Of a stretch of 64,000 bases of DNA, positions 6,426-33,800 are shown piece after piece. The stretch covers positions 2,503,290 to 2,567,289 of the forward strand of contig NZ_LR732707.1 in the NCBI RefSeq assembly GCF_902506555.1. Direction: 5' to 3'. The notes below the pieces were generated by a model. The model was given only the letters and a program-made list of their open reading frames with translations, searched no databases and had not been told where the DNA came from. Positions within the stretch are counted from its first letter, which is position 1; every line of letters begins with the position of its first letter. The DNA comes from Sphingorhabdus sp. 109 (GTDB lineage: Bacteria > Pseudomonadota > Alphaproteobacteria > Sphingomonadales > Sphingomonadaceae). Position numbers and translations under genes: made by a program.

Positions 6426-6782
6426 TCAGCCTCCCTGCCGCAGGCTGTCCATACCCGCACCATATTGTGTCCTTGCCTCGCCGGTCTTCTCAAGCGATCC
6501 GTAAACGCGCTTGATGAACTGGTCGCGCTGCGCCCGCCAGGCTTTCTCTTCTTCAGCCGTCGGCTGATATTGATTCACCTTCTCAAGCGAGATACCCTGA
6601 CTGGTAAGAACGGATTCCAGCACTTTTATCCGCCGCTGCGCACTCCAGACCTCAGAGCCCATGGCGACAATGGATGACACCAGCGCATCGATCGCAGGAT
6701 GGTCAAAAAATGCCGCCTTTTCGACGTCATAGGACAAAAAGTCCGTTGTATATGTCTCGTGCTTGCCGTTCTTCGATACCAT
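6426..6782 (-). CDS. Small helical protein, paralogue of the 107-residue gene at 8169-8492
   Basis: A 118-residue protein with no signal peptide or membrane segment. The central part (AFFDHPAIDALVSSIVAMGSEV) aligns without gaps to YFFDDPSVDKVLAMVMALTGEV in the product of 8169-8492, and both continue into a charged helical C-terminus rich in E, R and Q. A GGAG box lies 8 bases before the ATG. It is immediately upstream of the exported methyltransferase-fold protein and probably co-translated with it. I do not recognise the family; a small partner or structural subunit is plausible, but no function should be assigned. Confidence 0.75.
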   Translation of the reverse strand: MVSKNGKHETYTTDFLSYDVEKAAFFDHPAIDALVSSIVAMGSEVWSAQRRIKVLESVLTSQGISLEKVNQYQPTAEEEKAWRAQRDQFIKRVYGSLEKTGEARTQYGAGMDSLRQGG

Positions 6783-6980
6783 GATGCTGCTCCATTAGAC
6801 GAAAATTATTCATAAGATCAGTTGCACACACGCTATTCAACGCAGTGCTGCAGTGTCCAATATTTCATGCCTATCAAACCATCGACAAAACCGCTTGCGT
6901 GCCGTGGTCGGGCACCGCCAGACGATCATGGATCCATCACAAGGTCCATCGCTTTGACCGGAAAAGATAATCTGCTCCGC

Positions 6981-7922
6981 CTATGGCATGCCTTCAAAAG
7001 CTGTCGATTCCAGCTCGAAATACTCCCTGAACTCGGCGAGGGCGGCAATAACTTTTGCCAGTGCGGGTTCTTCGATAAACGCCTGATCCTCTTCCATCAC
7101 CGGTCCAGCGAGAATGGCCAGCTCGAGCGGGTCAGCCGGCGCCGGGAGGGGGAAAACTGTCGTACCTGTGGGTATTGCCAAAATGCCGACGACGTGGCTG
7201 GGCGCAATGCCTATCAGCCCGTTTCTGCGGACAGCCTGAAGCATGGTCAGCCAGCAGTCGGTTTCGAGGGCAACATCATAATCCTTGCAATGCTCTTCGA
7301 GACAGGCATCGATAATCGGACGGCTGGGTACATTTTTTGTCGGCAGGCACAATTGTCCCGAAGAAAGCTCCGACCAGGACAGGCGCGACGGCAGCACCGT
7401 GTCGCTTTCACCATATTTGAAAGCCACATAGGTTTCGGGGGCCAGGGGGAAGGTACGGATATCCAGATCATCGACAGTCGACAAATAGGTAATGCCCAGA
7501 TTCAGATTGGCATGGGAAACACCGCGCGCCACTTCGGTGGCGGACAACGTCTGGATTTCAGCCGAAACCGGCACATCCTTGAGGCGCAAGAACGACAATA
7601 GCAGAGACGCCAGGGGCGAAGCCGATGGCACGATGCCGACCGAAATAGAACCCTCGCCGGCCTGCCTGATTCTGGAAAAGTCACGCTTCAGGGCATCACA
7701 ATCTTCCAGCACGCTGGTCGCCCATTCCTCGACCCGGTCGCCAAAACGCGTCAGCCCGCGAAAGCGATGGTCGCGGACCACCAGTGGCACGCCAAATTCA
7801 TCTTCAAGTTGCCGGATTCGAGCGGAAAGCGTCGGTTGCGTTACAAAGCAGATGTCCGCCGCGCGGGCAAAATGATGTTCTTTCGCTAAGGTAACGAAAT
7901 ATTTCAGTTGACGCAGATCCAA
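6981..7922 (-). CDS. LysR-family transcriptional regulator
   Basis: A 313-residue LysR-type regulator. Residues 1-60 form the winged helix (LRQLKYFVTLAKEHHFARAAD, VTQPTLSARIRQLEDEFG), followed by a linker helix and a periplasmic-binding-protein-like effector domain (SISVGIVPSASPLASLL). The family N-terminus MDLRQL fits a TTG start at 7922, preceded by a GGAGAG box. It sits between the two paralogous small-protein genes, all leftward, with about 200 bp to the next gene on each side. It likely controls one or both small-protein transcription units. The effector is unknown. Confidence 0.92.
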   Translation of the reverse strand: MDLRQLKYFVTLAKEHHFARAADICFVTQPTLSARIRQLEDEFGVPLVVRDHRFRGLTRFGDRVEEWATSVLEDCDALKRDFSRIRQAGEGSISVGIVPSASPLASLLLSFLRLKDVPVSAEIQTLSATEVARGVSHANLNLGITYLSTVDDLDIRTFPLAPETYVAFKYGESDTVLPSRLSWSELSSGQLCLPTKNVPSRPIIDACLEEHCKDYDVALETDCWLTMLQAVRRNGLIGIAPSHVVGILAIPTGTTVFPLPAPADPLELAILAGPVMEEDQAFIEEPALAKVIAALAEFREYFELESTAFEGMP

Positions 7923-22737: not shown

Positions 22738-25263
22738 TCAGAATGTATATCCGACTTCCACACCAAAGCGACGAAGGCTTCCGGGTGACACGAACGAGCC
22801 GCCGAATTCGACCGCAGTGATCACCTCGTTGAGATAGCGCTTGTCGAGCAGATTGTCCGCAAAAGCGGTGATGTTCCAGTTGTCCCCTTCCAGTCCGAAA
22901 CGCAGATCGAGCACGCCAAAGGCATCGCGCTCGGTGATTGACATGTCCGCGTCACCGACGAAGGCGGGCAAAGCCAGAGTAGAGCCGGGCAACAGACCGC
23001 TGAAGAGGGTCGGGCCGACATCTTCCTGAACCGTGTGAAACCAGGTCGGACCGGTAATCCGGTAGTCGGCGCGCATCACCAGATCGAAACTGTCGGCAAT
23101 CGGAGCAACCATCTGGGTGCCCAGATTGATCGTATAGTCCGCAGTGTGCGGCGACTTGTTGCCCACCGTATAGGGACGGGAGGCATTGGCCTTGATCTCG
23201 CTTTCGGTAACATTGACCGAACCGAACACATCCCAGCCCTCGACGATTTCCGCATTGGCGTTGAATTCCAGTCCGTAGATATCGACCTTGTCGATATTCG
23301 AAACCACCCGCAGCAACCCGAAGGAACCGACGAAAAATTCGAAGAACTGCATGTCATCGACTTTGGTATAATAGCCGGCGAGATCGAAGGTTATCGCGCC
23401 ATTGACAGCCGAGCCCTTGAAACCGGCCTCGAACGCGCTCGACGTTTCCTTGCGATAGATATCATTGATCAGGATATCGGTACCGAGGAACTGGTTGAAA
23501 TTCTGGTCGACAATGGCGGCCGATCCCTGGTTGTTGAAACCGCCCGATTTGAATCCGATACCCCAGTTGGCATAAAAGTTCAGATTGTCGGTCAAACCGT
23601 AGCGCAGCGAAAGTTTTGGCTGCAACTCCTTGAAGGTTTCCTTCTGGTCCGGAATCGGGCCGAAAGCCTGACCGGGGTTGATCGGACCACCGGTGATCGG
23701 ATCGGTTACCAGCGGCACCCGGCTGGAGACTTCCCGCTGCTCGATATCGTAGCGCAGGGCGAGGCTGACATCGAAATTGTCGGCGACCTGATAGTCAAGC
23801 GAGCCGAAAGCGGCATAGACATTGGTGTTAAAATTGTCGGAAAACAGCTGCGAGGTCGGGTTGCTGCTATCCGCATCATTGTACAATTGGCGGATGATGC
23901 CCTGCCCGAGATCGGCACCAAGGCTGATTCCGACATCGCGATCGATGTTCAGATAATAGGCTCCAATCTGCCAGCCCAACGGCCCGTCGCCATTGGACGC
24001 CAGCCGCACCTCCGCACTGATGTCGGTCTGTTCGCGAATCTGATATTGAGTGCCGTCGCAGGTCGTCGGGCTATAGGCGCCCAGCGTTGATCCATTGACC
24101 GGATCGAAAATGAACGGGATCGGATTATTGCCGATAAACGTCGGCGCATTGAGCGGAAAGCCCGTCAGTTGCGCCGTGCTGGTGAAACAGGCGTTCGACG
24201 CCGCCACCGATGCGGGCGTTGCGCCGGGGAAGGTATAGCGCGCGAAATCCGCCGAGGTGCCGTCTGCCGTCAACGCCTGGTCGACGTCGCTGTAGAGCGC
24301 CCATGCGGTCAGCGTCATCGTGTCAAATTCATGGGTCAGCTTGACCGATGTTTCGAACGTGGTCTGGTCGTTGGTCGGACGGATATTGGAATAATAGCCG
24401 AATTCGTGATCGTTCACATCTTCGAAAAAGGCCGGATCCACACCCGCAAAATTGGGGAGGTGGAAGGCGGTGTTGAAATTGATCGATGCCCCCGAAAGAT
24501 CGGCATAGCGCGCCTTGACATCGATTTCGGTTGAATCGCCCAGTTCGGCGATGAACCGGCCGTCAACCGACCAGGTTTCCTGGTCATCGACCACTTTGCG
24601 GTTGTCGAGGAAGCTGTTGCGATAAAAGCCGTCGCTGGTGTTGTAGGAAGCCGACAGCACCAGACCGGCGCTGTCACCAATCGGTGTCGAGATATAGCCC
24701 GAGGCTTTATATGTATTGTCTTCTGCAGCGCTGAGCTTGACGCCGCCTTCCAGAATGTCACCCGGCTTTAGCGTCTGGATGACAATCGCTCCGGCCGCAG
24801 CATTGCGTCCATAGAGCGCGCCTTGCGGGCCTTTCAATATCTCGATCTGGCGGAGCGTGCCCTGGTCCTGGTTGAGCTGCGCGGTGTTGGTCTTGAGAAT
24901 GCCGTCGACGACAAGAGCGACCGAGCTTTCCGCGTCACGAGCGCCGTTAACGCCGCGAATGTTGATCTGGGTGTCACCCGCTTCTGCGGTACCGCTGACA
25001 ATCGTCACGCCGGCGGTCAGCTGAACAAATTCGTCTGCCTGCTGGACGCCGGTCCGGTCTAGCATATCGGCGGTGAACACCGTCACCGATGCCGGCACCT
25101 CGGCCAGCAATTCGTCCTGGCGACGGGCCGTCACGATGATGACATTGCCATCCTGGGCTTCGCTCGCCGTCTGCTCGCCGCCGCTCTGCGCGAAGGCTGG
25201 GTTAACGGCAACAAGCGCGGCGAAGCCGGCCGATAGTGAAAGAGCTCTTCTGATAGGACGCAT
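22738..25263 (-). CDS. TonB-dependent outer-membrane receptor
   Basis: An 841-residue outer-membrane receptor. The start at 25263 has an AAGGAAG box and gives a signal peptide (RRALSLSAGFAALVAVNPAFA). A plug domain follows (NVIIVTARRQDELLAEVPASVTVF, INIRGVNGARDAESSVALVVDG, GPQGALYGRNAAAGAI), then a large beta-barrel ending RRFGVEVGYTF with a terminal aromatic residue. It is the last gene of a leftward operon with two NTF2-fold proteins and the racemase-fold protein, so it probably imports the substrate of that pathway using TonB energy. A hairpin at 25285-25314 separates it from the upstream gene and may lower or separate its expression. Confidence 0.95.
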   Translation of the reverse strand: MRPIRRALSLSAGFAALVAVNPAFAQSGGEQTASEAQDGNVIIVTARRQDELLAEVPASVTVFTADMLDRTGVQQADEFVQLTAGVTIVSGTAEAGDTQINIRGVNGARDAESSVALVVDGILKTNTAQLNQDQGTLRQIEILKGPQGALYGRNAAAGAIVIQTLKPGDILEGGVKLSAAEDNTYKASGYISTPIGDSAGLVLSASYNTSDGFYRNSFLDNRKVVDDQETWSVDGRFIAELGDSTEIDVKARYADLSGASINFNTAFHLPNFAGVDPAFFEDVNDHEFGYYSNIRPTNDQTTFETSVKLTHEFDTMTLTAWALYSDVDQALTADGTSADFARYTFPGATPASVAASNACFTSTAQLTGFPLNAPTFIGNNPIPFIFDPVNGSTLGAYSPTTCDGTQYQIREQTDISAEVRLASNGDGPLGWQIGAYYLNIDRDVGISLGADLGQGIIRQLYNDADSSNPTSQLFSDNFNTNVYAAFGSLDYQVADNFDVSLALRYDIEQREVSSRVPLVTDPITGGPINPGQAFGPIPDQKETFKELQPKLSLRYGLTDNLNFYANWGIGFKSGGFNNQGSAAIVDQNFNQFLGTDILINDIYRKETSSAFEAGFKGSAVNGAITFDLAGYYTKVDDMQFFEFFVGSFGLLRVVSNIDKVDIYGLEFNANAEIVEGWDVFGSVNVTESEIKANASRPYTVGNKSPHTADYTINLGTQMVAPIADSFDLVMRADYRITGPTWFHTVQEDVGPTLFSGLLPGSTLALPAFVGDADMSITERDAFGVLDLRFGLEGDNWNITAFADNLLDKRYLNEVITAVEFGGSFVSPGSLRRFGVEVGYTF

Positions 25264-25318: not shown

Positions 25319-25717
25319 TTAGACGAGCACATTGGCTCCGCTCATGTAAACATAGACTTCCTGAAACTTGCCGTCGCGAACGCGCCAGAAATTAATATTG
25401 TTGAGCAATGTGACGTTGCCATCGGCATCGGTCAGTTCGGCCACGAAAGAAGCTGCGATGCGGCCATTGGCTTCATCAACGGTGCAGTTGAAATCGCGAT
25501 GGATGATGGTTTCATAGGCAGAGAAGAAATCCTCGAACATGCGCCGGATTTCTTCCTTGCCGCTGTGCCGGGTGAAATCGGTCTGGACGCAGAAGAGGGC
25601 GCCGTCATGGAAACAGTCGAGCGTGGCTTCCATATTCTTGGCGTCAACATTGCCGAAATAGGTTTTGGTGGCGAGCTCGATCAACTCATCGCGGGACAGT
25701 CCGGGTTCATATTGCAT
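25319..25717 (-). CDS. NTF2-fold (SnoaL/ketosteroid-isomerase-like) protein, copy 2
   Basis: A 132-residue single-domain protein of the nuclear-transport-factor-2/SnoaL fold. It shows TKTYFGNVDAKNMEATLDCF, EIRRMFEDFFSAYETI and the closing strand EVYVYMSGANVLV. The start codon overlaps the stop of the neighbouring NTF2-fold gene (TGATG), so the two are coupled. The two proteins are clear paralogues. Members of this fold act as isomerases, dehydratases, hydroxylase small subunits or binding proteins; here the function is not set by sequence, but the context suggests handling of the imported substrate. Confidence 0.85.
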   Translation of the reverse strand: MQYEPGLSRDELIELATKTYFGNVDAKNMEATLDCFHDGALFCVQTDFTRHSGKEEIRRMFEDFFSAYETIIHRDFNCTVDEANGRIAASFVAELTDADGNVTLLNNINFWRVRDGKFQEVYVYMSGANVLV

Positions 25718-26148
25718 CAGACGTCTCCCTCTTTCAGCAGATTGTCGCCGCTCATATAAACGGTAACGTCCTGGAACAGGCGGTCCTTGCAATAGAAGCG
25801 GTTGCAATTTTCATAGCGCAGCTGCTCGCCGCCATTGGGCGTGATGAGCACCGTGAACTGCGAACAGATCGCGTTGGATGCCGGGTCGGCGGTGTGGACA
25901 AAATTGCCGTGCCAGATCTGCTCGAAATCCGCGAACAGCTTTTCGAACATTGCGCGGATCGCGTCGCGGCCCTTGTGGGTGGTGTCCGAGGTTGCTTCGT
26001 AAAGCACTGCGTCGGGCGCGAAACAGTTGAGCACCTGGGTCATATTCTTGTTATCGACGCCGTCGAAATAGCGCTTGGTCACGATGTCTATGTAGAAGGG
26101 GTAAGGCAAGGGCACCTGGCCTGCCATCCCGGGTGTCCAGTCCGTCAT
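25717..26148 (-). CDS. NTF2-fold (SnoaL/ketosteroid-isomerase-like) protein, copy 1
   Basis: A 143-residue NTF2-fold protein. RYFDGVDNKNMTQVLNCF and AIRAMFEKLFADFEQI align throughout with the next gene, and both end in a VTVYMSG/VYVYMSG strand. The ATG at 26148 overlaps the racemase-fold stop codon (TAATG), and its own stop overlaps the next start, making a run of three translationally coupled genes. No signal peptide is seen. The pair may form a heterodimer; the precise activity is unknown. Confidence 0.85.
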   Translation of the reverse strand: MTDWTPGMAGQVPLPYPFYIDIVTKRYFDGVDNKNMTQVLNCFAPDAVLYEATSDTTHKGRDAIRAMFEKLFADFEQIWHGNFVHTADPASNAICSQFTVLITPNGGEQLRYENCNRFYCKDRLFQDVTVYMSGDNLLKEGDV

Positions 26149-26891
26149 TAATACCATCCCTTTCGAATATCCTCGTCTTTCGGCACTTCGGGCGCCGGAA
26201 AGGCTTTCTTGCTGTGGGTCAGGCCCAGTTCAATCAGCGTTTCCAGAAATTTATAGGCAACCTGCCCCGGGTTGAGCACCGGGATCGGCAGGTTATCGTC
26301 GAGAAATTTGGCCGACTGGTGCATGGTGGTCGATCCCAGCACGATAACATCCGCGCCGTCCTCTTCCATCGCAAGCGTCGCTTCTTCCACGAGCTTGTCG
26401 AATATCACCTCTTCCTTGCCAGCCAGCAATTCGGTGACATCGGGCCGGGTTTCGATCGAGCGTAGCGAGGCCACCCGTTCCCACCAGCCATATTCGGTTA
26501 GCGTCTTCTCATAGAGCGGGAACCATTCGGGCCACATCGTCAGCACGGTGAATTTCTTGCCCAGCATCATGGCCGCGGCAAAGGCCGCTTCGCCGGGACC
26601 GACCACCGGAATATTGAGACGCGAGCGGAGCGCCCGCATGCCGCTGTCGCTGACCGTGTCGATCAGGACGCCGGCATAGCCTTCTTCCTCGGCCTTGATC
26701 CCGGCCTGGAAAACGGTCCAGTCCATCAACAGCGTGTCGTGATAACTGTCTCCGAGCGCAGCCCCCCAGGGTACAGCGACAAATTCGGGCTGGAAACCGC
26801 TGCGGACAAAGTCGGCGGGCAATTGCTCGGCTCTGGCCGCTACTCCCTCTGCATCCATAGGGATCGGCACGATAACCTTGATCCGTTTCAT
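26148..26891 (-). CDS. Asp/Glu/hydantoin racemase-fold protein without catalytic cysteines
   Basis: A 247-residue protein with the two-domain fold of the Asp/Glu/hydantoin racemase, maleate isomerase and arylmalonate decarboxylase superfamily (GVLIDTVSDSGMRALRS; PVVGPGEAAFAAAMMLG; ADVIVLGSTTM; IPVLNPGQVAYKFLETL). In the family, two cysteines act as acid/base; here the first site is T79 (DTVSD) and the second is S187 (LGSTTM), and there is no cysteine anywhere in the chain. The start at 26891 is set by homology, since no strong ribosome-binding site is present. It is first in the leftward operon with the NTF2-fold pair and the TonB receptor and faces the FCD GntR gene. Probably an isomerase, decarboxylase or hydrolase of altered mechanism. 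Confidence 0.8.
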   Translation of the reverse strand: MKRIKVIVPIPMDAEGVAARAEQLPADFVRSGFQPEFVAVPWGAALGDSYHDTLLMDWTVFQAGIKAEEEGYAGVLIDTVSDSGMRALRSRLNIPVVGPGEAAFAAAMMLGKKFTVLTMWPEWFPLYEKTLTEYGWWERVASLRSIETRPDVTELLAGKEEVIFDKLVEEATLAMEEDGADVIVLGSTTMHQSAKFLDDNLPIPVLNPGQVAYKFLETLIELGLTHSKKAFPAPEVPKDEDIRKGWY

Positions 26892-26937: not shown

Positions 26938-26949
26938 ATTGTATACAAT
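26938..26949. promoter_or_regulatory. Operator palindrome ATTGTATACAAT, copy 1
   Basis: A perfect 12-bp palindrome between the divergent racemase-fold gene (start 26891) and the FCD GntR gene (start 26979 or 27015). An identical copy lies at 28912-28923. The GTATAC core with flanking T and A runs is typical of sites bound by FCD/VanR-type GntR proteins, so it is probably the operator of the adjacent regulator. Confidence 0.75.
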
Positions 26950-27014: not shown

Positions 27015-27668
27015 ATGACCCGTGCTTCCGATCGTGCCTATCGAAAAATTCGGAGCTTCATCCTTTCGGATGACGTGCACCCGGGCATGCAATTGACCGA
27101 AGAGCGACTCGCCGAGATTTCTGGCGTTTCACGGACGCCGGTGCGCGATGCGGTGCAGAGGCTGGAAAACGAGATGCTGCTGGTTCGCAGCGCCTCGAAG
27201 CGGCTTTCGGTGGCGGACTGGTCGCATGATGAAATTGACGAGATTTTCTCTCTCAGGGCGATGCTCGAGTCCCACGCGGCGGAACGGGCCGCACAGCGGA
27301 TGGATGACGAAAGCCTAGCCAGGCTGCGCGCCATCAATGTGACCCTGACCGAAGCAGTCAACCGACCGGAGGCCGATATTGCGACTTTTCTCGAAGCAAA
27401 CCGGCAGTTTCATGGCCTGATTCTCGATCGCGCCCAGTCCCCGCGCCTGAGCCAATTGCTCCCGTCCCTAGTCGAACAGCCGGTCGTTCGCCGCACCGCC
27501 GCCCAATATTCGCGCGACGACCTGATCCAGTCGGGCATTGATCACGAAGAGCTGATCGCCGCTTTTGCAGCCAGGGATTCAAAGTGGGCGCGCGCGGTCA
27601 TGACCAGTCATATCCGCCGCGCCTTTCACAGCTTCAGCAGCGCAACCTCGAGAATTGCGAAAGACTGA
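27015..27668 (+). CDS. GntR-family regulator with FCD effector domain
   Basis: A 217-residue regulator. The N-terminal winged helix has SDRAYRKIRSFIL, LTEERLAEISGVSRTPVRDAVQRLE; the C-terminal FCD helical domain has the metal/ligand residues in FLEANRQFHGLIL and MTSHIRRA. An alternative TTG start at 26979 is better supported by AAAGGTGAAGG and would add 12 residues. It is divergent from the racemase-fold operon and convergent with the CoA-transferase gene (13 bp apart). Two identical palindromes in the flanking promoter regions are probable binding sites, making it the local regulator of both operons; FCD proteins usually release DNA on binding an organic acid. Confidence 0.93.
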   Translation: MTRASDRAYRKIRSFILSDDVHPGMQLTEERLAEISGVSRTPVRDAVQRLENEMLLVRSASKRLSVADWSHDEIDEIFSLRAMLESHAAERAAQRMDDESLARLRAINVTLTEAVNRPEADIATFLEANRQFHGLILDRAQSPRLSQLLPSLVEQPVVRRTAAQYSRDDLIQSGIDHEELIAAFAARDSKWARAVMTSHIRRAFHSFSSATSRIAKD

Positions 27669-27681
27669 ACGCAGGCCTGCC

Positions 27682-28863
27682 TCAGATAATTCCGCGCTCC
27701 TGCAAGTCTTTCATTTTTGCGCTGTCCATACCCAGTAGCTCGCCATAGACAGCTTCGTTATGCGCGCCCAGATCCGGCCCCACGCTATCGATATGGCCGG
27801 GAGTCTTGGACAATTTCGGCGCGACATTCTGCATGACGAAATGCTCGTGATGGGGGTGGTCCATCTCGACCAGCGCCTCGCGTGCCTTGAAATGCGGATC
27901 TGCCAGCATTTCGGGAGCGCGATAGACATTGCCCGCCGGGACGCCATGCTCCTCGCACATATCGAGCAAATCCTGGCTTTTTATGGTCTTGGTCCATTCC
28001 ATGATCAGTTCGTCCAGTTCGGTCTGGTTTTCACCGCGCGCAACATGAGTCGCATAGCGGGGATCTTCGGCCAGCTCCGGCCGCCCCATCATCGCAGCCA
28101 TGCGTTTCCAGACGCTGTCCTGATTGCCGCCGATCAATATGCTGCCATCGCTGGTCGGATAGACATTGGAAGGGGCAATTTTTGGCAGAATCGACCCCGT
28201 CCGCTCCCGGATATGGCCCGCCACCGTATATTCGGCGACAGTCGATTCCATATTCGCCAGCACCGCTTCGTAAATAGCCGAATCGACAACCTGCCCTTCG
28301 CCGGTCTTGTGCCGGTGCTCCAGCGCCATAAGCCCGCCAAGACAGGCGTAGGTGGCGGCAAGCGAATCGCCAATCGACAAGCCAGCGCGGCTGGGCGGAC
28401 GGTCCGGTTCACCAATGATATAGCGCATCCCGCCCATTGCCTCGCCTATGCCTCCATAGCCGGCGCGGTGCGAATAGGGACCAGTCTGACCATAGCCCGA
28501 GACGCGGATCATGATCAGCCCCTTGTTGATCGCGCTCAGCGTCTCGTAATCCAGACCCCATTTTTCCATCGTGCCGGCGCGGAAATTCTCGAGCAGAAAG
28601 TCGGATTTCTCGACCAGCTGCTTGACGATCGCCTGACCTTCCTTTTCCCGTAAATTCAGTGTGATCGACTTTTTGTTGCGGCCGACAACGGAAAACCAGA
28701 GCGGAATGCCCTGGCCCCAGCTGCGCATCGCGTCACCAACCTTTGGCGGCTCGATCTTGATTACTTCTGCGCCATGGTCGCCCATCAGCTGGCCACAGAA
28801 CGGCCCCGCGATCAGCTGACCCATTTCGATCAGCCGCAACCCGGTCAATGCACCTTGCGTCAT
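27682..28863 (-). CDS. Class III CoA transferase (CaiB/BaiF family)
   Basis: A 393-residue CoA transferase. Landmarks are LIEMGQLIAGPFCGQLMGDHGAEVIKIEPP at the N-terminus, the CoA-site GRNKKSITLNLR, and the catalytic aspartate in LSIGDSLAATYACLGGLMAL that forms the acyl-glutamyl/aspartyl intermediate of this class. A GGGAG box precedes the ATG at 28863. It faces the HMG-CoA-lyase-like gene across a 64-bp gap holding the second operator. It would activate a carboxylic acid (for example a dicarboxylate or aromatic acid) with CoA from succinyl-CoA or similar, feeding the lyase. Acid identity unknown. Confidence 0.93.
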   Translation of the reverse strand: MTQGALTGLRLIEMGQLIAGPFCGQLMGDHGAEVIKIEPPKVGDAMRSWGQGIPLWFSVVGRNKKSITLNLREKEGQAIVKQLVEKSDFLLENFRAGTMEKWGLDYETLSAINKGLIMIRVSGYGQTGPYSHRAGYGGIGEAMGGMRYIIGEPDRPPSRAGLSIGDSLAATYACLGGLMALEHRHKTGEGQVVDSAIYEAVLANMESTVAEYTVAGHIRERTGSILPKIAPSNVYPTSDGSILIGGNQDSVWKRMAAMMGRPELAEDPRYATHVARGENQTELDELIMEWTKTIKSQDLLDMCEEHGVPAGNVYRAPEMLADPHFKAREALVEMDHPHHEHFVMQNVAPKLSKTPGHIDSVGPDLGAHNEAVYGELLGMDSAKMKDLQERGII

Positions 28864-28888: not shown

Positions 28889-28900
28889 CTTCTATACAAA
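28889..28900. promoter_or_regulatory. Degenerate operator half, 23 bp from operator copy 2
   Basis: Matches 9 of the 12 bases of the ATTGTATACAAT palindrome, keeping the TATACAA arm intact. Its centre is 23 bp from the centre of the perfect copy, close to two helical turns, so a second dimer could bind on nearly the same face. Supported only by similarity. Confidence 0.4.
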
Positions 28901-28911
28901 GCAGTTACAGG

Positions 28912-28923
28912 ATTGTATACAAT
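28912..28923. promoter_or_regulatory. Operator palindrome ATTGTATACAAT, copy 2
   Basis: Identical to the palindrome at 26938-26949. It lies in the divergent space between the CoA-transferase gene (start 28863) and the HMG-CoA-lyase-like gene (start 28928), ending only four bases before the latter's ATG. Its TATACA/TACAAT core could double as a -10 element, so repressor binding would block transcription directly. Confidence 0.75.
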
Positions 28924-28927
28924 TTAT

Positions 28928-29848
28928 ATGAGCACAGATAGTCGCACCGCGATCACCATTTTGGAAGTCGGCCCGCGAGACGGGCTGCAAAACGAAGCCG
29001 AAGTCATTTCTACGGCGGACAAGCTGGGCCTGATCACCCGCATGCTGGATGCCGGGGCAAAGCGCATGGAAGTGGCCAGTTTTGTCCATCCGGGCCGGGT
29101 TCCGCAAATGGCGGATGCGGAAGCGGTTATTGCCGGCCTGCCCGACCGCGATGACGTTTCCTATATCGGCCTTTGCCTGAACAAGCGCGGCGTGCTGCGC
29201 GGGCTGGCAACGCGCGAAGGCAACAAGCGCGGGATTGACGAAGCCGGCTGCGTGGTCGTGGCCAGCGATACATTCGGCCAGAAGAACCAGGGCCAGACCA
29301 TCGAGCAGGGGATCAGAGAGAATCGCGAGATGATCCGCTTCGCCAAAGCCGAGGGACTGAAGGCGCAGGTTACCATATCGGCCGCCTTTGGCTGTCCATT
29401 CGAGGGCGCGGTGTCTCCCGAGACGGTTCTCCATATCGCCGAAGAAATGGCCGCCGAAGACCCCACGGAAATCGCACTGGCCGACACGATCGGCGTCGGC
29501 GTTCCGGCGCAAGTTACCGACTTGTTCGGACGTCTCCGGGAATTGCTTCCCGGCCATATTAAGATGCGGGCCCATTTCCATGACACGCGCAACACCGGTA
29601 TAGCCAATGCATGGGCCGCCGTGCAGGCCGGTGTGGAAACGCTGGATTCCAGCCTCGGCGGGCTGGGCGGATGTCCGTTCGCGCCCAATGCCACGGGCAA
29701 TATCGCGACGGAAGATCTGGTCAACCTGCTCAACCGCTCCGGGATTGATCATGATCTAGATCTGCAGAAAGCCATCGCCACCAATCAGTGGTTCGAAACG
29801 ATTCTCGGCCGGCCGCTGCCGTCTCTGGTTGCGAGAGCCGAATCCTGA
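28928..29848 (+). CDS. HMG-CoA lyase-like acyl-CoA lyase (DRE-TIM metallolyase)
   Basis: A 306-residue HMG-CoA-lyase-family enzyme. The catalytic arginine and metal aspartate are in VGPRDGLQNE (R17, D18), metal histidines in RAHFHDTRNTG (H216, H218) and the loop cysteine in GGLGGCPFAPNATGN (C249); CPFEG in the middle also fits the family. All residues needed to cleave a 3-hydroxy-3-methylacyl-CoA by retro-Claisen reaction are present. The start at 28928 lies only four bases after the operator palindrome, leaving almost no leader. It heads a rightward operon with the hydantoinase subunits. The true substrate may be another tertiary 3-hydroxyacyl-CoA. Confidence 0.92.
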   Translation: MSTDSRTAITILEVGPRDGLQNEAEVISTADKLGLITRMLDAGAKRMEVASFVHPGRVPQMADAEAVIAGLPDRDDVSYIGLCLNKRGVLRGLATREGNKRGIDEAGCVVVASDTFGQKNQGQTIEQGIRENREMIRFAKAEGLKAQVTISAAFGCPFEGAVSPETVLHIAEEMAAEDPTEIALADTIGVGVPAQVTDLFGRLRELLPGHIKMRAHFHDTRNTGIANAWAAVQAGVETLDSSLGGLGGCPFAPNATGNIATEDLVNLLNRSGIDHDLDLQKAIATNQWFETILGRPLPSLVARAES

Positions 29849-29878: not shown

Positions 29879-31933
29879 ATGGGGTATCGATTGGGTGTCG
29901 ACGTCGGCGGAACTTTTACCGACCTGCTGCTGATTGACGAGGCTACCGGCCAGACGTTCCGGGACAAGGTCCCGTCGACCCCGAGCGACCCCTCTCAGGC
30001 GGTGATCAATGGCGCAAGGGGGTTGTGCGAGCGACAGGATATCGCGCCCGACCAGATCGATCTGTTCCTGCACGGCACCACCGTCGCGACCAACGCGGTG
30101 CTGGAGAAGAAAATTGCAAAGGTCGGACTCTTGGTCACCGACGGCTATCGCCACTTGATGCAGATTGCCCGCAGTCTGGTGCCTGGTGGGCTGGCAGCCT
30201 GGATCATCTGGCCAAAACCCGAACCCATGGCAGCCCTCGAACGCACGATCGAAGCACCGGAACGAATGGATGCCGAAGGCAATACTGTCCGCGAACTGGA
30301 CGAGGGAGAAATGCGCGCCCGACTAGAAAAGCTTAAGGCATCGGAAGAAGTCGAGGCGCTGACCATCTGCCTGATGAACAGCTATGTCGATGGTCGTCAC
30401 GAAAAGGCCGTCGCGGCCATTTGTGCCGAGGTCTTTCCGGATATTCCGATTTCCATCTCCTCCGACATCCTGCCGGAAATGCAGGAATATGAACGCGCCC
30501 TCACAACCATCGCCAATAGCGCGGTGCGCCCGGCTGTCGCCCGCTATGTCGGCAATCTGGAACGGGAACTGAAGGATTGGGGTAGCAAGGCAAAACTCAA
30601 CCTGCTGCGCTCCGATGGCGGATTGATGTCGGCGGAAAAAAGCGCCGAGGCGCCGGTCAATCTGCTGATGTCCGGGCCGGCCGGTGGTGTTGCCGGTGCC
30701 GTCTGGGTAGCGAAAAGCGCGGGCGTAAAAAATATTCTCACGCTTGATATGGGCGGCACGTCGACCGATGTGGCGCTGATCGAGAATGGCGCGGCGCGGC
30801 TGCAGCGGGAAACCTCGGTCGGGGACCTAAATGTCCGCGCGTCGTCGATCGACGTCAAAACCGTGGGCGCCGGCGGCGGCTCGATCGCCTTTGTGCCCGA
30901 ACTGACCAAGGCGCTGCGGGTCGGCCCGGAAAGCGCCGGCGCGGTCCCCGGCCCGGTGGCTTATGGCAAGGGCGGGGAATTGCCGACCGTGACCGACGCC
31001 AATGTCGTGCTCGGCTATTTGCCGGAATCGCTGCTCGGCGGCAGCTTTACCCTCGATCGCGAGGGCGCGAAGAAATCGGTGCAGACGATCGCCGACGCGC
31101 TGGGTATCGACCTGATGGATGCCGCTGCTGGGATCATCGATATCGTCAATGAAAATATGTTCGGCGCGCTGCGGCTGGTCTCGGTGCAGCAGGGCTATGA
31201 TCCGCGCGACTTCGCCCTGATGGGCTTTGGCGGCGCCGGACCGCTGCACGCCAATGCAATGGGCAAGCTGATGAACAGCTGGCCGGTGATCATTCCGCCC
31301 TCGCCAGGCGTGCTCTGCGCCTATGGCGATGCAACAACACGACAACGCGTCGAAACGCAGCGCAGCTTCAACAAGATGGTCCAGAACACGACCGATGAAG
31401 AGCTCACCGCCTATCTCGACAGTCTCGGCGCGCAGGTGAAACAGGAGCTGGAGGCCGAAGATGTCGCGCCCGGCGATATCGAATTGCTTTATGAAATCGA
31501 TATCCGCTACGCTGGCCAAGCCTTCGAAATTCCCCTGTCGGTGGAACCCGAAGGCCTTTCGATTGCCAGCCTGATCGCCCGCTTCGATACCGAGCACGAA
31601 CGATTGTTCACCTTCAATCTCGACGAGACACCGCACGAAATCGTCAACGTCCGCGCCGTGGCGCTCGGTAAATCCGCCGATGTTGCGCCGCCATCGATCG
31701 GCAAGGGCGACGCCGACCCGGCCGCCGCAAAAACCCGTGATCATCAACTCTACATGGACGGCAAGATGCAGGACGCGGCAATCTATGACCGCGCCCTGCT
31801 GAAAGCTGGCAATCGCGTCCAGGGACCTGCCATCGTCACCGAAATGGACAGCACGACATTGGTGCACAGCGGCTGTGAAGCGCTGGTGGACGACCATGGC
31901 AATCTGATCATCAACCTGGTGGAAGGAGCCTGA
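29879..31933 (+). CDS. hyuA: Hydantoinase A-type ATP-dependent subunit (hydantoinase/oxoprolinase/acetone carboxylase family)
   Basis: A 684-residue protein with an actin/HSP70-like ATPase fold. Phosphate-binding motifs are LGVDVGGTFTDLLL at the N-terminus, LLMSGPAGGV, LTLDMGGTSTDVALI and GFGGAGPLHA. The family includes N-methylhydantoinase A, 5-oxoprolinase and the alpha/beta-type subunits of acetone and acetophenone carboxylases, all of which phosphorylate an amide or enol oxygen with ATP. The next gene encodes the B subunit with a 1-bp gap, and its ribosome-binding site lies inside the end of this gene. No gamma subunit as in acetone carboxylase is present, so an ATP-dependent cyclic amide hydrolase or an unusual carboxylase are both possible. 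Confidence 0.93.
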   Translation: MGYRLGVDVGGTFTDLLLIDEATGQTFRDKVPSTPSDPSQAVINGARGLCERQDIAPDQIDLFLHGTTVATNAVLEKKIAKVGLLVTDGYRHLMQIARSLVPGGLAAWIIWPKPEPMAALERTIEAPERMDAEGNTVRELDEGEMRARLEKLKASEEVEALTICLMNSYVDGRHEKAVAAICAEVFPDIPISISSDILPEMQEYERALTTIANSAVRPAVARYVGNLERELKDWGSKAKLNLLRSDGGLMSAEKSAEAPVNLLMSGPAGGVAGAVWVAKSAGVKNILTLDMGGTSTDVALIENGAARLQRETSVGDLNVRASSIDVKTVGAGGGSIAFVPELTKALRVGPESAGAVPGPVAYGKGGELPTVTDANVVLGYLPESLLGGSFTLDREGAKKSVQTIADALGIDLMDAAAGIIDIVNENMFGALRLVSVQQGYDPRDFALMGFGGAGPLHANAMGKLMNSWPVIIPPSPGVLCAYGDATTRQRVETQRSFNKMVQNTTDEELTAYLDSLGAQVKQELEAEDVAPGDIELLYEIDIRYAGQAFEIPLSVEPEGLSIASLIARFDTEHERLFTFNLDETPHEIVNVRAVALGKSADVAPPSIGKGDADPAAAKTRDHQLYMDGKMQDAAIYDRALLKAGNRVQGPAIVTEMDSTTLVHSGCEALVDDHGNLIINLVEGA

Positions 31934-31934
31934 T

Positions 31935-33800
31935 ATGCCCGCACAGATTATTGAAACCAACCAAGCTCCCTTCAACAAGGTCGAGGTTGATCCGGTCACC
32001 CTCGACATCATGGAAAACGCCCTGCGCAACGCTCGGATCGAGATGGACGCCACATTGGTCCGCACCGCCATGTCGCCCGGTATCCGCGAACAAGGCGACG
32101 CCTTTCCGCTGATCGCCGACCGCGACGGCAAGATGGTGGTCGGCCAGTTCGGCAGCTTCATCGACGGCTTCCTGCGCTCCTATCCCGGCACGATCGAGGA
32201 AGGCGACATGATCTTCCTCAGCGACCCTTACAGCTGCGACGGCGCCGTCAGTCATAATAATGACTGGCTGGTTCTGCTGCCGGTTTATCGCGGCGGCAGG
32301 CTGGTCGCCTGGACCGCGATGTTCGGCCACCAGTCCGACATTGGCGGCAAGGTGGCCGGTTCGATTCCGATCGACAGCAAGAGCGTGTTCGAAGAAGGCG
32401 TCCGGATACCGCCGGTCAAAATCTACCAGAAGGGCGTCTATAACGAGGAGATGGTCAAGGTCGTCCTGCACCAGAGCCGCAAACCGGACTGGTGCGCCGC
32501 CGATCTCAACGCGCTGATCGCTTCCTGCCGGGTGGCGGCCCGCCGGGTCGATGAAATATGTGCGCGCTTTGGCGAGGATGAATTTGCCGGTGCCACCGAT
32601 CTGCTGCTCGAACGCAATCACCGCGCGATGAAACATCTGATCGAAACCAGCATCGGCGAGGAACCGGTCAGCTTCAGCGACTATATCTGCGACGACGGCG
32701 TCGGTTTCGGCCCCTACAAGATCAGCTGCAAAATGTGGCGCGAGGGCGGCAAGGTCATCCTCGATTTCGAAGGCACCGACCCGCAGGCGCCAAGCTCGAT
32801 CAACTTCTTCCTCAACGAAAATATGTTCAAGATGTTCTTCGGCATCTATATGATCATGGTCTTTGACCCGCAGATCCTGTTCAACGACGGCTTCTACGAT
32901 CTGGTCGATGTCCGCATTCCGGAAGGGTCGCTGCTCAAGCCGAAATATCCCGCCGCACTAGCCGGCCGGACCCATGCGCTGGGCCGGATTTTCGATATAT
33001 TGGGTGGCCTGCTCGGCCAGCGCCAGCCAGAATTCCTCAACGGTGCCGGTTTCTCGTCCAGTCCGCATCTGATGTATTCGGGCTTCGACAAGGGCGGTGA
33101 ATGGTTCCAGCTGTTCCAGATCGGCTTTGGCGGTATTCCCGGGCGGCCCTTTGGCGACGGCCCGGACGGCCACTCGCTATGGCCCGGCTTCACCAATGTG
33201 CCGAACGAATTTCTCGAGAAATATTTCCCTCTGCGAATCGAGCGCTACGAGGCCAAGCCCGACAGCGGTGGCGCCGGCAGCTTCCGCGGCGGCAACGGCA
33301 TCCACATGACTTACCGTTTCCTGGAGCCCGGAACGGTGGCAATCCACGATGACCGCTGGTTCACCTATCCGTGGGGCGTCAATGGCGGCCAGCCCGGTGA
33401 CCGGGCCACCAAGATATTGGAGCGCGCCGATGGCACGAAAGAGGTGGTCGGCAACAAACAGGATGGCGTCGAGGTCCGCGAAGGCGACCTGCTGCACTTC
33501 ATTACCTGGGGTGGTGGCGGCTGGGGCAACCCGCTCGAACGCGACCCCGAACTGGTCGCTCTGGAAATCCGCCAGGGACTGGTGACCGTCAAAGGCGCGC
33601 GCGACTATGGCGTGGTTATCGCCGATGACGGCAGCGTCGATGGTCCGGCCACCGAAAGCCTGCGCGCGGAAATGGCGGCCGATGTGGTCGAGAGCGACAG
33701 TCCTTTCAACTTTGGCCCCGATATCGAGACCTTGCGGGCCAATTGTCTGGAAGAAACCGGACTGCCGGCACCAGTGCAGCCGGGAACGGTCGCCGCCTAG
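31935..33800 (+). CDS. hyuB: Hydantoinase B-type subunit
   Basis: A 621-residue hydantoinase B/oxoprolinase-family protein. The conserved core DPVTLDIMENALRNARIEMDATLVRTAMSP-like start, then FLSDPYSCDGAVSHNNDW, AMFGHQSDIGG and the ligand-rich histidines identify it; the C-terminus has the GGGGWGNPLERDP signature. It pairs with the A subunit directly upstream to form the ATP-dependent enzyme, where B is thought to hold the hydrolytic or carboxylating site. AAGGAG within the A gene precedes its ATG. The substrate cannot be named from the sequence. Confidence 0.93.
   Translation: MPAQIIETNQAPFNKVEVDPVTLDIMENALRNARIEMDATLVRTAMSPGIREQGDAFPLIADRDGKMVVGQFGSFIDGFLRSYPGTIEEGDMIFLSDPYSCDGAVSHNNDWLVLLPVYRGGRLVAWTAMFGHQSDIGGKVAGSIPIDSKSVFEEGVRIPPVKIYQKGVYNEEMVKVVLHQSRKPDWCAADLNALIASCRVAARRVDEICARFGEDEFAGATDLLLERNHRAMKHLIETSIGEEPVSFSDYICDDGVGFGPYKISCKMWREGGKVILDFEGTDPQAPSSINFFLNENMFKMFFGIYMIMVFDPQILFNDGFYDLVDVRIPEGSLLKPKYPAALAGRTHALGRIFDILGGLLGQRQPEFLNGAGFSSSPHLMYSGFDKGGEWFQLFQIGFGGIPGRPFGDGPDGHSLWPGFTNVPNEFLEKYFPLRIERYEAKPDSGGAGSFRGGNGIHMTYRFLEPGTVAIHDDRWFTYPWGVNGGQPGDRATKILERADGTKEVVGNKQDGVEVREGDLLHFITWGGGGWGNPLERDPELVALEIRQGLVTVKGARDYGVVIADDGSVDGPATESLRAEMAADVVESDSPFNFGPDIETLRANCLEETGLPAPVQPGTVAA

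Follow-up and report, generated by a model that had tools for sequence, protein, structure and literature searches.

In the available part of PMC12661438, the two cysteines of the Asp/Glu racemase superfamily are described as conserved throughout, and the exceptions known so far keep one of the two. What, then, does a protein of this fold do when it belongs to a clade that has neither? The question is raised by a gene, here called RAC, in the 64,000-nucleotide stretch of Sphingorhabdus sp. 109 that was analysed (the window, whose numbering is used below), where an earlier note had described a racemase-fold protein with Thr79 and Ser187 at the two catalytic positions. A large and well-constrained clade lacking both cysteines would mean that chemistry without thiols is possible on this fold and would caution against calling such genes racemases, while a compact regulon in the sequenced genera Parasphingorhabdus, Blastomonas and Erythrobacter would offer a route to substrate and reaction. 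We found no description of this clade or its gene cluster in the literature, as covered by the titles and abstract openings of open-access papers. The answer that we favour, tentatively and at somewhat under even confidence, is that RAC works as an enzyme without cysteine on the Asp/Glu racemase fold, and that it would contribute a step to a catabolic regulon of the GntR type.

The RAC Protein and Its Fold

The coordinates in the earlier note were right, and the minus strand can now be added (Table 1). The ORF begins with ATG, and its 247-residue translation contains no cysteine. The protein reaches 98.1 bits against the PF01177 profile, whose curated cut-off is 31, and 17.7 bits with the NCBIfam model TIGR00035 (asp_race), short of the cut-off of 93.1. 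An AlphaFold2 model built from 34 close sequences (mean pLDDT 89) has the two-domain pseudo-symmetric fold (Z 28.4 to 5lfd, 2.3 Å over 234 residues). Among solved structures it matches allantoin racemases best (Z 28, 2.3–2.7 Å, 234–240 residues), followed by hydantoin racemase (Z 24.7) and OpaE (Z 22.6), with arylmalonate decarboxylase, glutamate and aspartate racemases and maleate isomerase at Z 13–16. Model confidence is lowest in a block (pLDDT 55) within P150–E160, a stretch that aligns near lid loop B of OpaE.

Alignment with the Klebsiella allantoin racemase 3qvj (IACFGDPG / VLGCGGM) places T79 on Cys79 and S187 on Cys184, so that the earlier claim of two replaced catalytic cysteines stands; the 3qvk chain of the same Klebsiella enzyme has Ser at both positions. 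A threonine at the first position is already known, since the E. coli L-Asp/Glu racemase has Thr83 first and Cys197 second according to the available part of PMC12661438, and the unusual part is therefore the loss of the second cysteine.

Table 1. Features of the RAC locus and of related loci (L numbers are our own labels for loci; unlabelled positions are those of the window).
Feature	Position	Strand	Basis or remark
RAC, Asp/Glu-racemase-fold protein with Thr79/Ser187, 247 aa	26148..26891	-	ORF, PF01177, 3qvj alignment, AF2 model
Thr79 codon ACG, first catalytic-Cys position	26655..26657	-	alignment
Ser187 codon TCG, second catalytic-Cys position	26331..26333	-	alignment
His191 codon; candidate acid/base	26319..26321	-	27/28 clade representatives, 0/20 Cys/Cys members
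G158-K159-E160, low-confidence loop near OpaE lid loop B; candidate acid/base	26412..26420	-	28/28 clade representatives
SnoaL-like protein 1 (SnoaL1)	25717..26148	-	ATG overlaps RAC stop (TAATG)
SnoaL-like protein 2 (SnoaL2)	25319..25717	-	start overlaps SnoaL1 stop (TGATG)
TonB-dependent receptor	22738..25263	-	ATG at 25263; in-frame ATG at 25332 also possible
GntR-family regulator with FCD domain	27015..27668	+	divergent from RAC
Family III (CaiB/BaiF) CoA-transferase	27682..28863	-	
HMG-CoA-lyase family protein	28928..29848	+	equivalents of catalytic Arg, Asp, two His, Cys
HyuA-type subunit	29879..31933	+	best solved relative N-methylhydantoinase
HyuB-type subunit	31935..33800	+	
Palindrome TTGTATACAA, putative GntR operator	26939..26948		RAC/GntR intergenic
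Palindrome TTGTATACAA, second putative operator	28913..28922		CoA-transferase/lyase intergenic; one-mismatch copy 28890-28899
Second racemase-fold gene directly after RAC, pair lost	L181:10793-11533; L182:10774-11463; L184:10771-11427		also in L229, L230

Conservation of the Thr/Ser Pair

The earlier note had allowed for a sequencing error at both codons, which, together with gene decay, we regard as vanishingly improbable. All 95 unique close sequences (from 125 loci) have both Thr79 and Ser187, so chance or error is ruled out as the source of the pair. The two residues are kept across independent assemblies, 30 of 32 genus genomes (own included) carry RAC at 91–100% identity without an internal stop, and nothing turned up in favour of error or decay of RAC.

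A RAC match was found in 40 of 60 genomes, the own genome included (E ≤ 1e-5). A collection of named genomes, searched with words that excluded both catalytic sites, gave 109 relatives; the best 80, which were kept, come from Parasphingorhabdus, Blastomonas, Erythrobacter, Novosphingobium and others. Counted as relatives by match, with Thr/Ser status read for the fetched loci only, RAC has kin at 50% identity or more in 45 of 396 genomes of an order-wide sample, at 47% or more in 6 of 398 genomes of a phylum sample and, as clade-profile matches (E ≤ 1e-45), in 17 of 385 genomes of a class sample. Relatives in a plasmid collection all lie below 60% identity, with 6 of 30 records at 45–53% among the matches listed. 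Carriage of RAC as phage cargo was considered and dropped, the viral collection having given a single match, L179. In that locus, filamentous-phage-like ORFs (Zot-like, by eye; L179:1693-4505) lie immediately upstream of the RAC gene and look like a filamentous prophage.

From 191 family ORFs, 179 of at least 200 aa yielded 143 unique ones, which fall by the residues at the two sites into 111 T/S, 3 S/S, 20 C/C, 5 A/G, 1 S/C and 3 others. The T/S and S/S classes (114 of the 143) reach down to 43% identity with RAC; the remaining ORFs, at 40% or less, are C/C, A/G or S/C, degenerate tandem copies excepted. Synonymous codons vary at the pair across the 114, which have ACN in 111 and TCN in 3 at position 79, and TCN in 113 and AGC in 1 at position 187.

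These codons bear on the idea that RAC racemises or epimerises a substrate whose C–H is unusually acidic, as in a hydantoin or imide, and manages with Ser and Thr. Its nearest fold matches, allantoin and hydantoin racemases, would suit such a role, as would the presence in the same apparent regulon of HyuAB, whose HyuA is nearest to N-methylhydantoinase. However, Cys itself occurs at position 187 in none of the 114 sequences, although in 47 of them the Ser187 codon (TCC or TCT) is one base away from it. Moreover, in the available part of PMC12661438, OpaE is reported to keep 4.8% of its activity as C90S and at most 0.3% as C199S or C90S/C199S, and since these Cys-to-Ser variants are nearly dead, the Thr/Ser pair of RAC is unlikely to racemise. 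We therefore consider a racemase of this kind quite improbable.

The earlier note had also stressed the complete absence of cysteine. This is true of the 247-residue chain, but it does not define the group: 36 of the 114 T/S or S/S sequences are cysteine-free, and across the sequences compared the absence is incidental. Nor is a catalytic cysteine found relocated to another equivalent position, as had also been envisaged, since the clade has no conserved Cys column; its cysteines lie in patchy columns (140 in 51, 76 in 20 and 216 in 14 of the 114), none of which holds a cysteine in RAC.

A Separate Clade

In a tree that masks the two catalytic columns, one branch with support of 98/97 unites the hydroxyl class, taken as 28 representatives (<80% identity), and three degenerate tandem paralogs nest within it. 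The C/C and A/G sequences sit across a 99/90 branch, and the S/C row joins the tree beside the clade on a very long branch. The conserved Thr/Ser clade that had been looked for thus exists as 114 of 143 unique family ORFs on a single branch and, to judge from alignment and tree, is real and stands apart from the Cys/Cys racemases. The tree fits a single replacement of the Cys pair, with later loss in some tandem copies; because it is unrooted, the direction of replacement rests on Cys/Cys being general in the superfamily.

Other departures from the cysteine pair were seen as well. A racemase-fold ORF in L144 (about 6648-7331, minus strand) has Ser first and Cys second, resembling the Thr/Cys layout of the E. 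coli L-Asp/Glu racemase, and five phylum-sample loci (L152, L155, L156, L162 and L168) have Ala first and Gly second (IIAAFGDPG / AGAPLSG), a second group lacking both cysteines that forms one 100/100 branch on the opposite side of the tree.

The earlier note held that the fold signatures and acidic residues were otherwise preserved, which holds in part only: among the positions kept in at least 27 of the 28 representatives, 24 are present in 10% or less of the 20 C/C sequences. Invariant (28/28) are W120, Y127, K129, P150, L155, G158, K159, E160, F164, S187, T189 and G209, which, together with H191 (27/28), are clade-characteristic by this measure. Q23, G64 and S81 are likewise invariant, as are T188, M190, N207 and P208, these last four not being clade-specific (50, 45, 20 and 55% of C/C sequences, respectively); M119, W123, E133 and D151 are kept in 27 of 28. 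A class search brought in 28 further ORFs (21 T/S, 4 S/S, 1 A/S and 2 degenerate tandem copies, D/Q and D/R), which are not all independent, as some repeat earlier records (L227/L100) and L229, L230 and L182 apparently belong to one genus. Exceptions occur among its 25 T/S or S/S ORFs, of which 2 lack W at position 120, 5 lack Y at 127, 3 lack K at 159 and 4 lack H at 191; S81 and E160 are kept in all 25. Such strong constraint on RAC and its clade agrees with the earlier view that the protein is probably functional.

Tandem Copies and the Question of Catalysis

In five tandem pairs the first copy is T/S and the second is A/S (L181), D/Q (L182), D/- (L184), D/Q (L229) or D/R (L230), a pattern which suggests that the pair matters in the first copy; the pair-less second copy is perhaps a heteromeric partner. 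Other arrays (L183, L218-L222) retain the pair in both or all copies; in L218-L222 (our genomes G1099, G823 and G1028) two or three genes of the Thr/Ser type follow one another. Clade matches number from 4 to at least 7 per genome in four genomes of a single alphaproteobacterial family, some of them in tandem.

It can be asked whether RAC catalyses anything at all, or whether it is a ligand-binding, scaffold or regulatory subunit, for example one serving HyuAB or the SnoaL-like proteins. In favour of such a subunit, RAC lacks both catalytic residues of the known mechanism, its gene is joined to the SnoaL genes by stop/start overlaps, and the T/S pair has also been lost by some tandem paralogs in other genomes. 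On the other hand, the residues that surround both positions, like those of the lid, are near-invariant and specific to the clade, every tandem array seen has at least one T/S or S/S copy, and in some genomes there are several copies for which no SnoaL neighbour was found. On balance we judge a non-catalytic RAC unlikely; the different mechanism proposed in the earlier note would still be the best reading, with a binding-only role as an alternative to it.

The Operon and Its Apparent Regulon

The tight operon described earlier is borne out by the two stop/start overlaps in Table 1, and the likely start of the TonB receptor lies 55 bases past SnoaL2. Of the nine cluster proteins, RAC has the highest median identity, 82.7% over 80 loci (the best 80 of 109, picked by RAC). 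In these best 80 named loci, neighbour matches (E ≤ 1e-20) were found for SnoaL1 in 76, SnoaL2 in 76, the TonB receptor in 76, GntR in 78, the CoA-transferase in 68, the lyase in 71, HyuA in 73 and HyuB in 67, matches being counted anywhere in the locus, with some loci incomplete and some matches possibly paralogs (lyase at 36%). Of the 114 T/S rows, 99 have a SnoaL-like ORF within 3 kb, as against 0 of the 20 C/C rows, 10 of the latter being on loci of about 3.5 kb.

The neighbours suggest a catabolic gene set. The lyase scores 283.7 bits with the HMG-CoA lyase model NF004283 (cut-off 246), and its Arg, Asp, His, His and Cys, which we take to be the catalytic residues, are retained in every one of the 71 loci where the lyase has a match. 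For the CoA-transferase the top-scoring model is succinate-glutarate CoA-transferase, under the cut-off (302.2 of 750); the available part of PMC7426296 uses the name "Succinate-hydroxymethylglutarate CoA-transferase" for SUGCT. HyuA scores 463.5 bits as N-methylhydantoinase, 372.2 as 5-oxoprolinase and 282.5 and lower as acetone/acetophenone carboxylases, and the NCBIfam equivalog cut-offs for caprolactamase and acetophenone carboxylase were missed (HyuA 525.3 of 1000, HyuB 204.9 of 1000, carboxylase models lower). HyuA and HyuB are thus both encoded nearby, as in a hyu gene set, and HyuC (N-carbamoyl amino acid hydrolase) was not among the nine ORFs given to Pfam or the nine given to NCBIfam. 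The model of SnoaL1 (pLDDT 75) matches many cone-fold proteins, including limonene epoxide hydrolase, ketosteroid isomerase and putative polyketide cyclases, and as far as this model goes the matches single out no one reaction.

What ties the two halves of the cluster together is the palindrome TTGTATACAA. With at most one mismatch it has three matches in the window, a number reached in 0 of 100 shuffles; the 3.62-Mb genome holds no further exact copy and one copy of a reversed control pattern. Over the 32 genus genomes (own included) the palindrome occurs twice in 27, three times in 2, once in 2 and not at all in 1, and the 29 genomes with at least two sites all have two of them beside RAC, spaced by about 2 kb. 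G017, the genome lacking any site, has no RAC match, and of those with one site, G014 has RAC and G029 is without it. As the reversed control occurs in 0–6 copies per genus genome, single sites mean little, and it is the pairing beside RAC that counts. Of the 80 named loci (best 80 of 109), 65 have a site of the pattern TYGTATACRA no more than 250 bp upstream of RAC. Because both promoters share the palindrome, RAC is tied to the CoA-transferase, the lyase and HyuAB as one pathway. This apparent GntR-type catabolic regulon with two sites is well supported by the genomes compared, and the GntR regulator would bind TTGTATACAA.

Contexts of Distant Members

The shared gene context anticipated in the earlier note holds in the main branch of the clade, but distant members have other neighbours. 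Among 34 loci below 80% identity, HyuA was found in 13, HyuB in 13, isochorismatase-like genes in 14, SnoaL in 15, the CoA-transferase in 9 and the lyase in 9; among 17 loci below 65% the corresponding counts are 4, 4, 5, 3, 1 and 1, so that the SnoaL association thins with divergence. Eight Cys/Cys control loci had HyuA in all 8 and HyuB, SnoaL, CoA-transferase, lyase and isochorismatase in none at the threshold used. HyuAB as proof of a new function was accordingly set aside, HyuA being present at 8 of 8 controls.

As seen with a crude gene caller, some of whose ORFs are shadows, L126, L127 and L129 (50–53% identical to RAC) have Rieske-type and AMP-ligase genes near, with extradiol-type genes in L126 and L127, and UbiD occurs among the neighbours of distant clade members. 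RAC relatives on Tistrella and Neorhizobium plasmids are accompanied by MmgE/PrpD, isocitrate-lyase-type, FAD and tautomerase-like genes and a second racemase-fold gene, and one on a Variovorax plasmid adjoins transporter genes and a second racemase-fold gene. In L182 (8126-8617) and L184 (8111-8602), a 163-aa protein adjoining RAC has a tautomerase-like N-terminal part, and the L184 protein also has a weak C-terminal match to DUF4440 (NTF2-like). With such different neighbours a single pathway cannot hold for the whole clade, and the family seems versatile and catabolic, unbound to any one pathway.

The AMP ligases beside or near RAC in L126, L127 and L129, of which the one scored, that of L126, reaches 635 bits as malonyl-CoA synthase (cut-off 558), invite another interpretation, namely that RAC is a decarboxylase or C–C lyase akin to arylmalonate decarboxylase, with a malonate-like or acetic-acid-like product. 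The shared fold (3dg9, Z 16.4) accords with this, but the equivalent of Cys188 is Ser in RAC and no such ligase is among the window cluster ORFs scanned, which makes such a decarboxylase or lyase rather unlikely.

Proposed Chemistry

Since the swap is kept in more than 100 relatives and RAC sits in an apparent breakdown gene set, the protein may well do chemistry unlike that of the textbook family, and it is most likely an active, cysteine-independent isomerase or lyase. In the scheme that we envisage, the TonB receptor would take up the substrate, and HyuAB would open a cyclic amide or imide at the expense of ATP, its likeliest role given that HyuA is closest to N-methylhydantoinase. RAC and the two SnoaL-like proteins would rearrange the opened product, after which the CoA-transferase would activate it and the HMG-CoA-lyase-like enzyme would cleave it. 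The lyase and CoA-transferase matches make a 3-hydroxy-3-alkyl-dicarboxylate a plausible late intermediate, ahead of which RAC and the SnoaL pair may act. A tetrapyrrole-derived maleimide was considered as substrate and dropped for want of evidence.

Within the former racemase pocket of RAC, the hydroxyls of Thr79 and Ser187, together with Thr188 and the backbone amides of Val80 and Thr188, could bind a carboxylate or an enolate; in OpaE, backbone amides form the oxyanion hole. His191 and the Lys159/Glu160 of the lid are candidates for acid and base because they are typical of the clade, and proton transfer by them would yield an isomerase or lyase and not a two-cysteine racemase. For the clade as a whole it is possible, rather than probable, that a thiol-free centre (an oxyanion cradle of Thr79, Ser187 and Thr188 with His191 and a Lys-Glu lid) carries out an isomerisation or a C–C or C–N step in undescribed catabolic pathways. 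The same thiol-free reading is equally provisional when extended to a clade that reaches across Alphaproteobacteria and further, has multiplied in some genomes and in some cases is accompanied by site-less paralogs.

Comparison with Known Enzymes

With the second cysteine missing, the known mechanisms of racemases, arylmalonate decarboxylase and maleate isomerase fail for RAC. Maleate isomerase (4fq7, 2xed) shares the fold at Z 15, and MmgE/PrpD and isocitrate-lyase-type genes accompany some distant RAC relatives; however, it uses two catalytic cysteines (C194 and C200 appear in the structure titles), whereas the RAC chain is Cys-free. Arylmalonate decarboxylase (2vlb, 3dg9; Z 15–16) likewise has a non-Cys first position (Gly74, title of 3ixm), but its second position is Cys188 (title of 3ixl), a catalytic residue of that enzyme, where RAC has Ser187.

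The closest likeness is to allantoin racemase (Klebsiella 3qvj/3qvk; AllR 5lfd), with which RAC shares the fold over the whole chain (Z 28, 26–27% identity) and both aligned sites. Yet the Cys79/Cys184 of that enzyme are Thr79/Ser187 in RAC, which thus lacks the two catalytic cysteines that mark hydantoin and allantoin racemases, and RAC has 24 further clade-characteristic positions, several of them in the lid loop and in 119–133. The fungal epimerase OpaE (9qbx, Z 22.6) has the superfamily fold but keeps Cys90/Cys199, its Ser variants being almost inactive (available part of PMC12661438). The E. coli L-Asp/Glu-specific racemase (5ell, 5elm; Z about 15), as described in the same part of that source, agrees with RAC at the first position with its Thr83, but at the second it keeps Cys197 where RAC has Ser.
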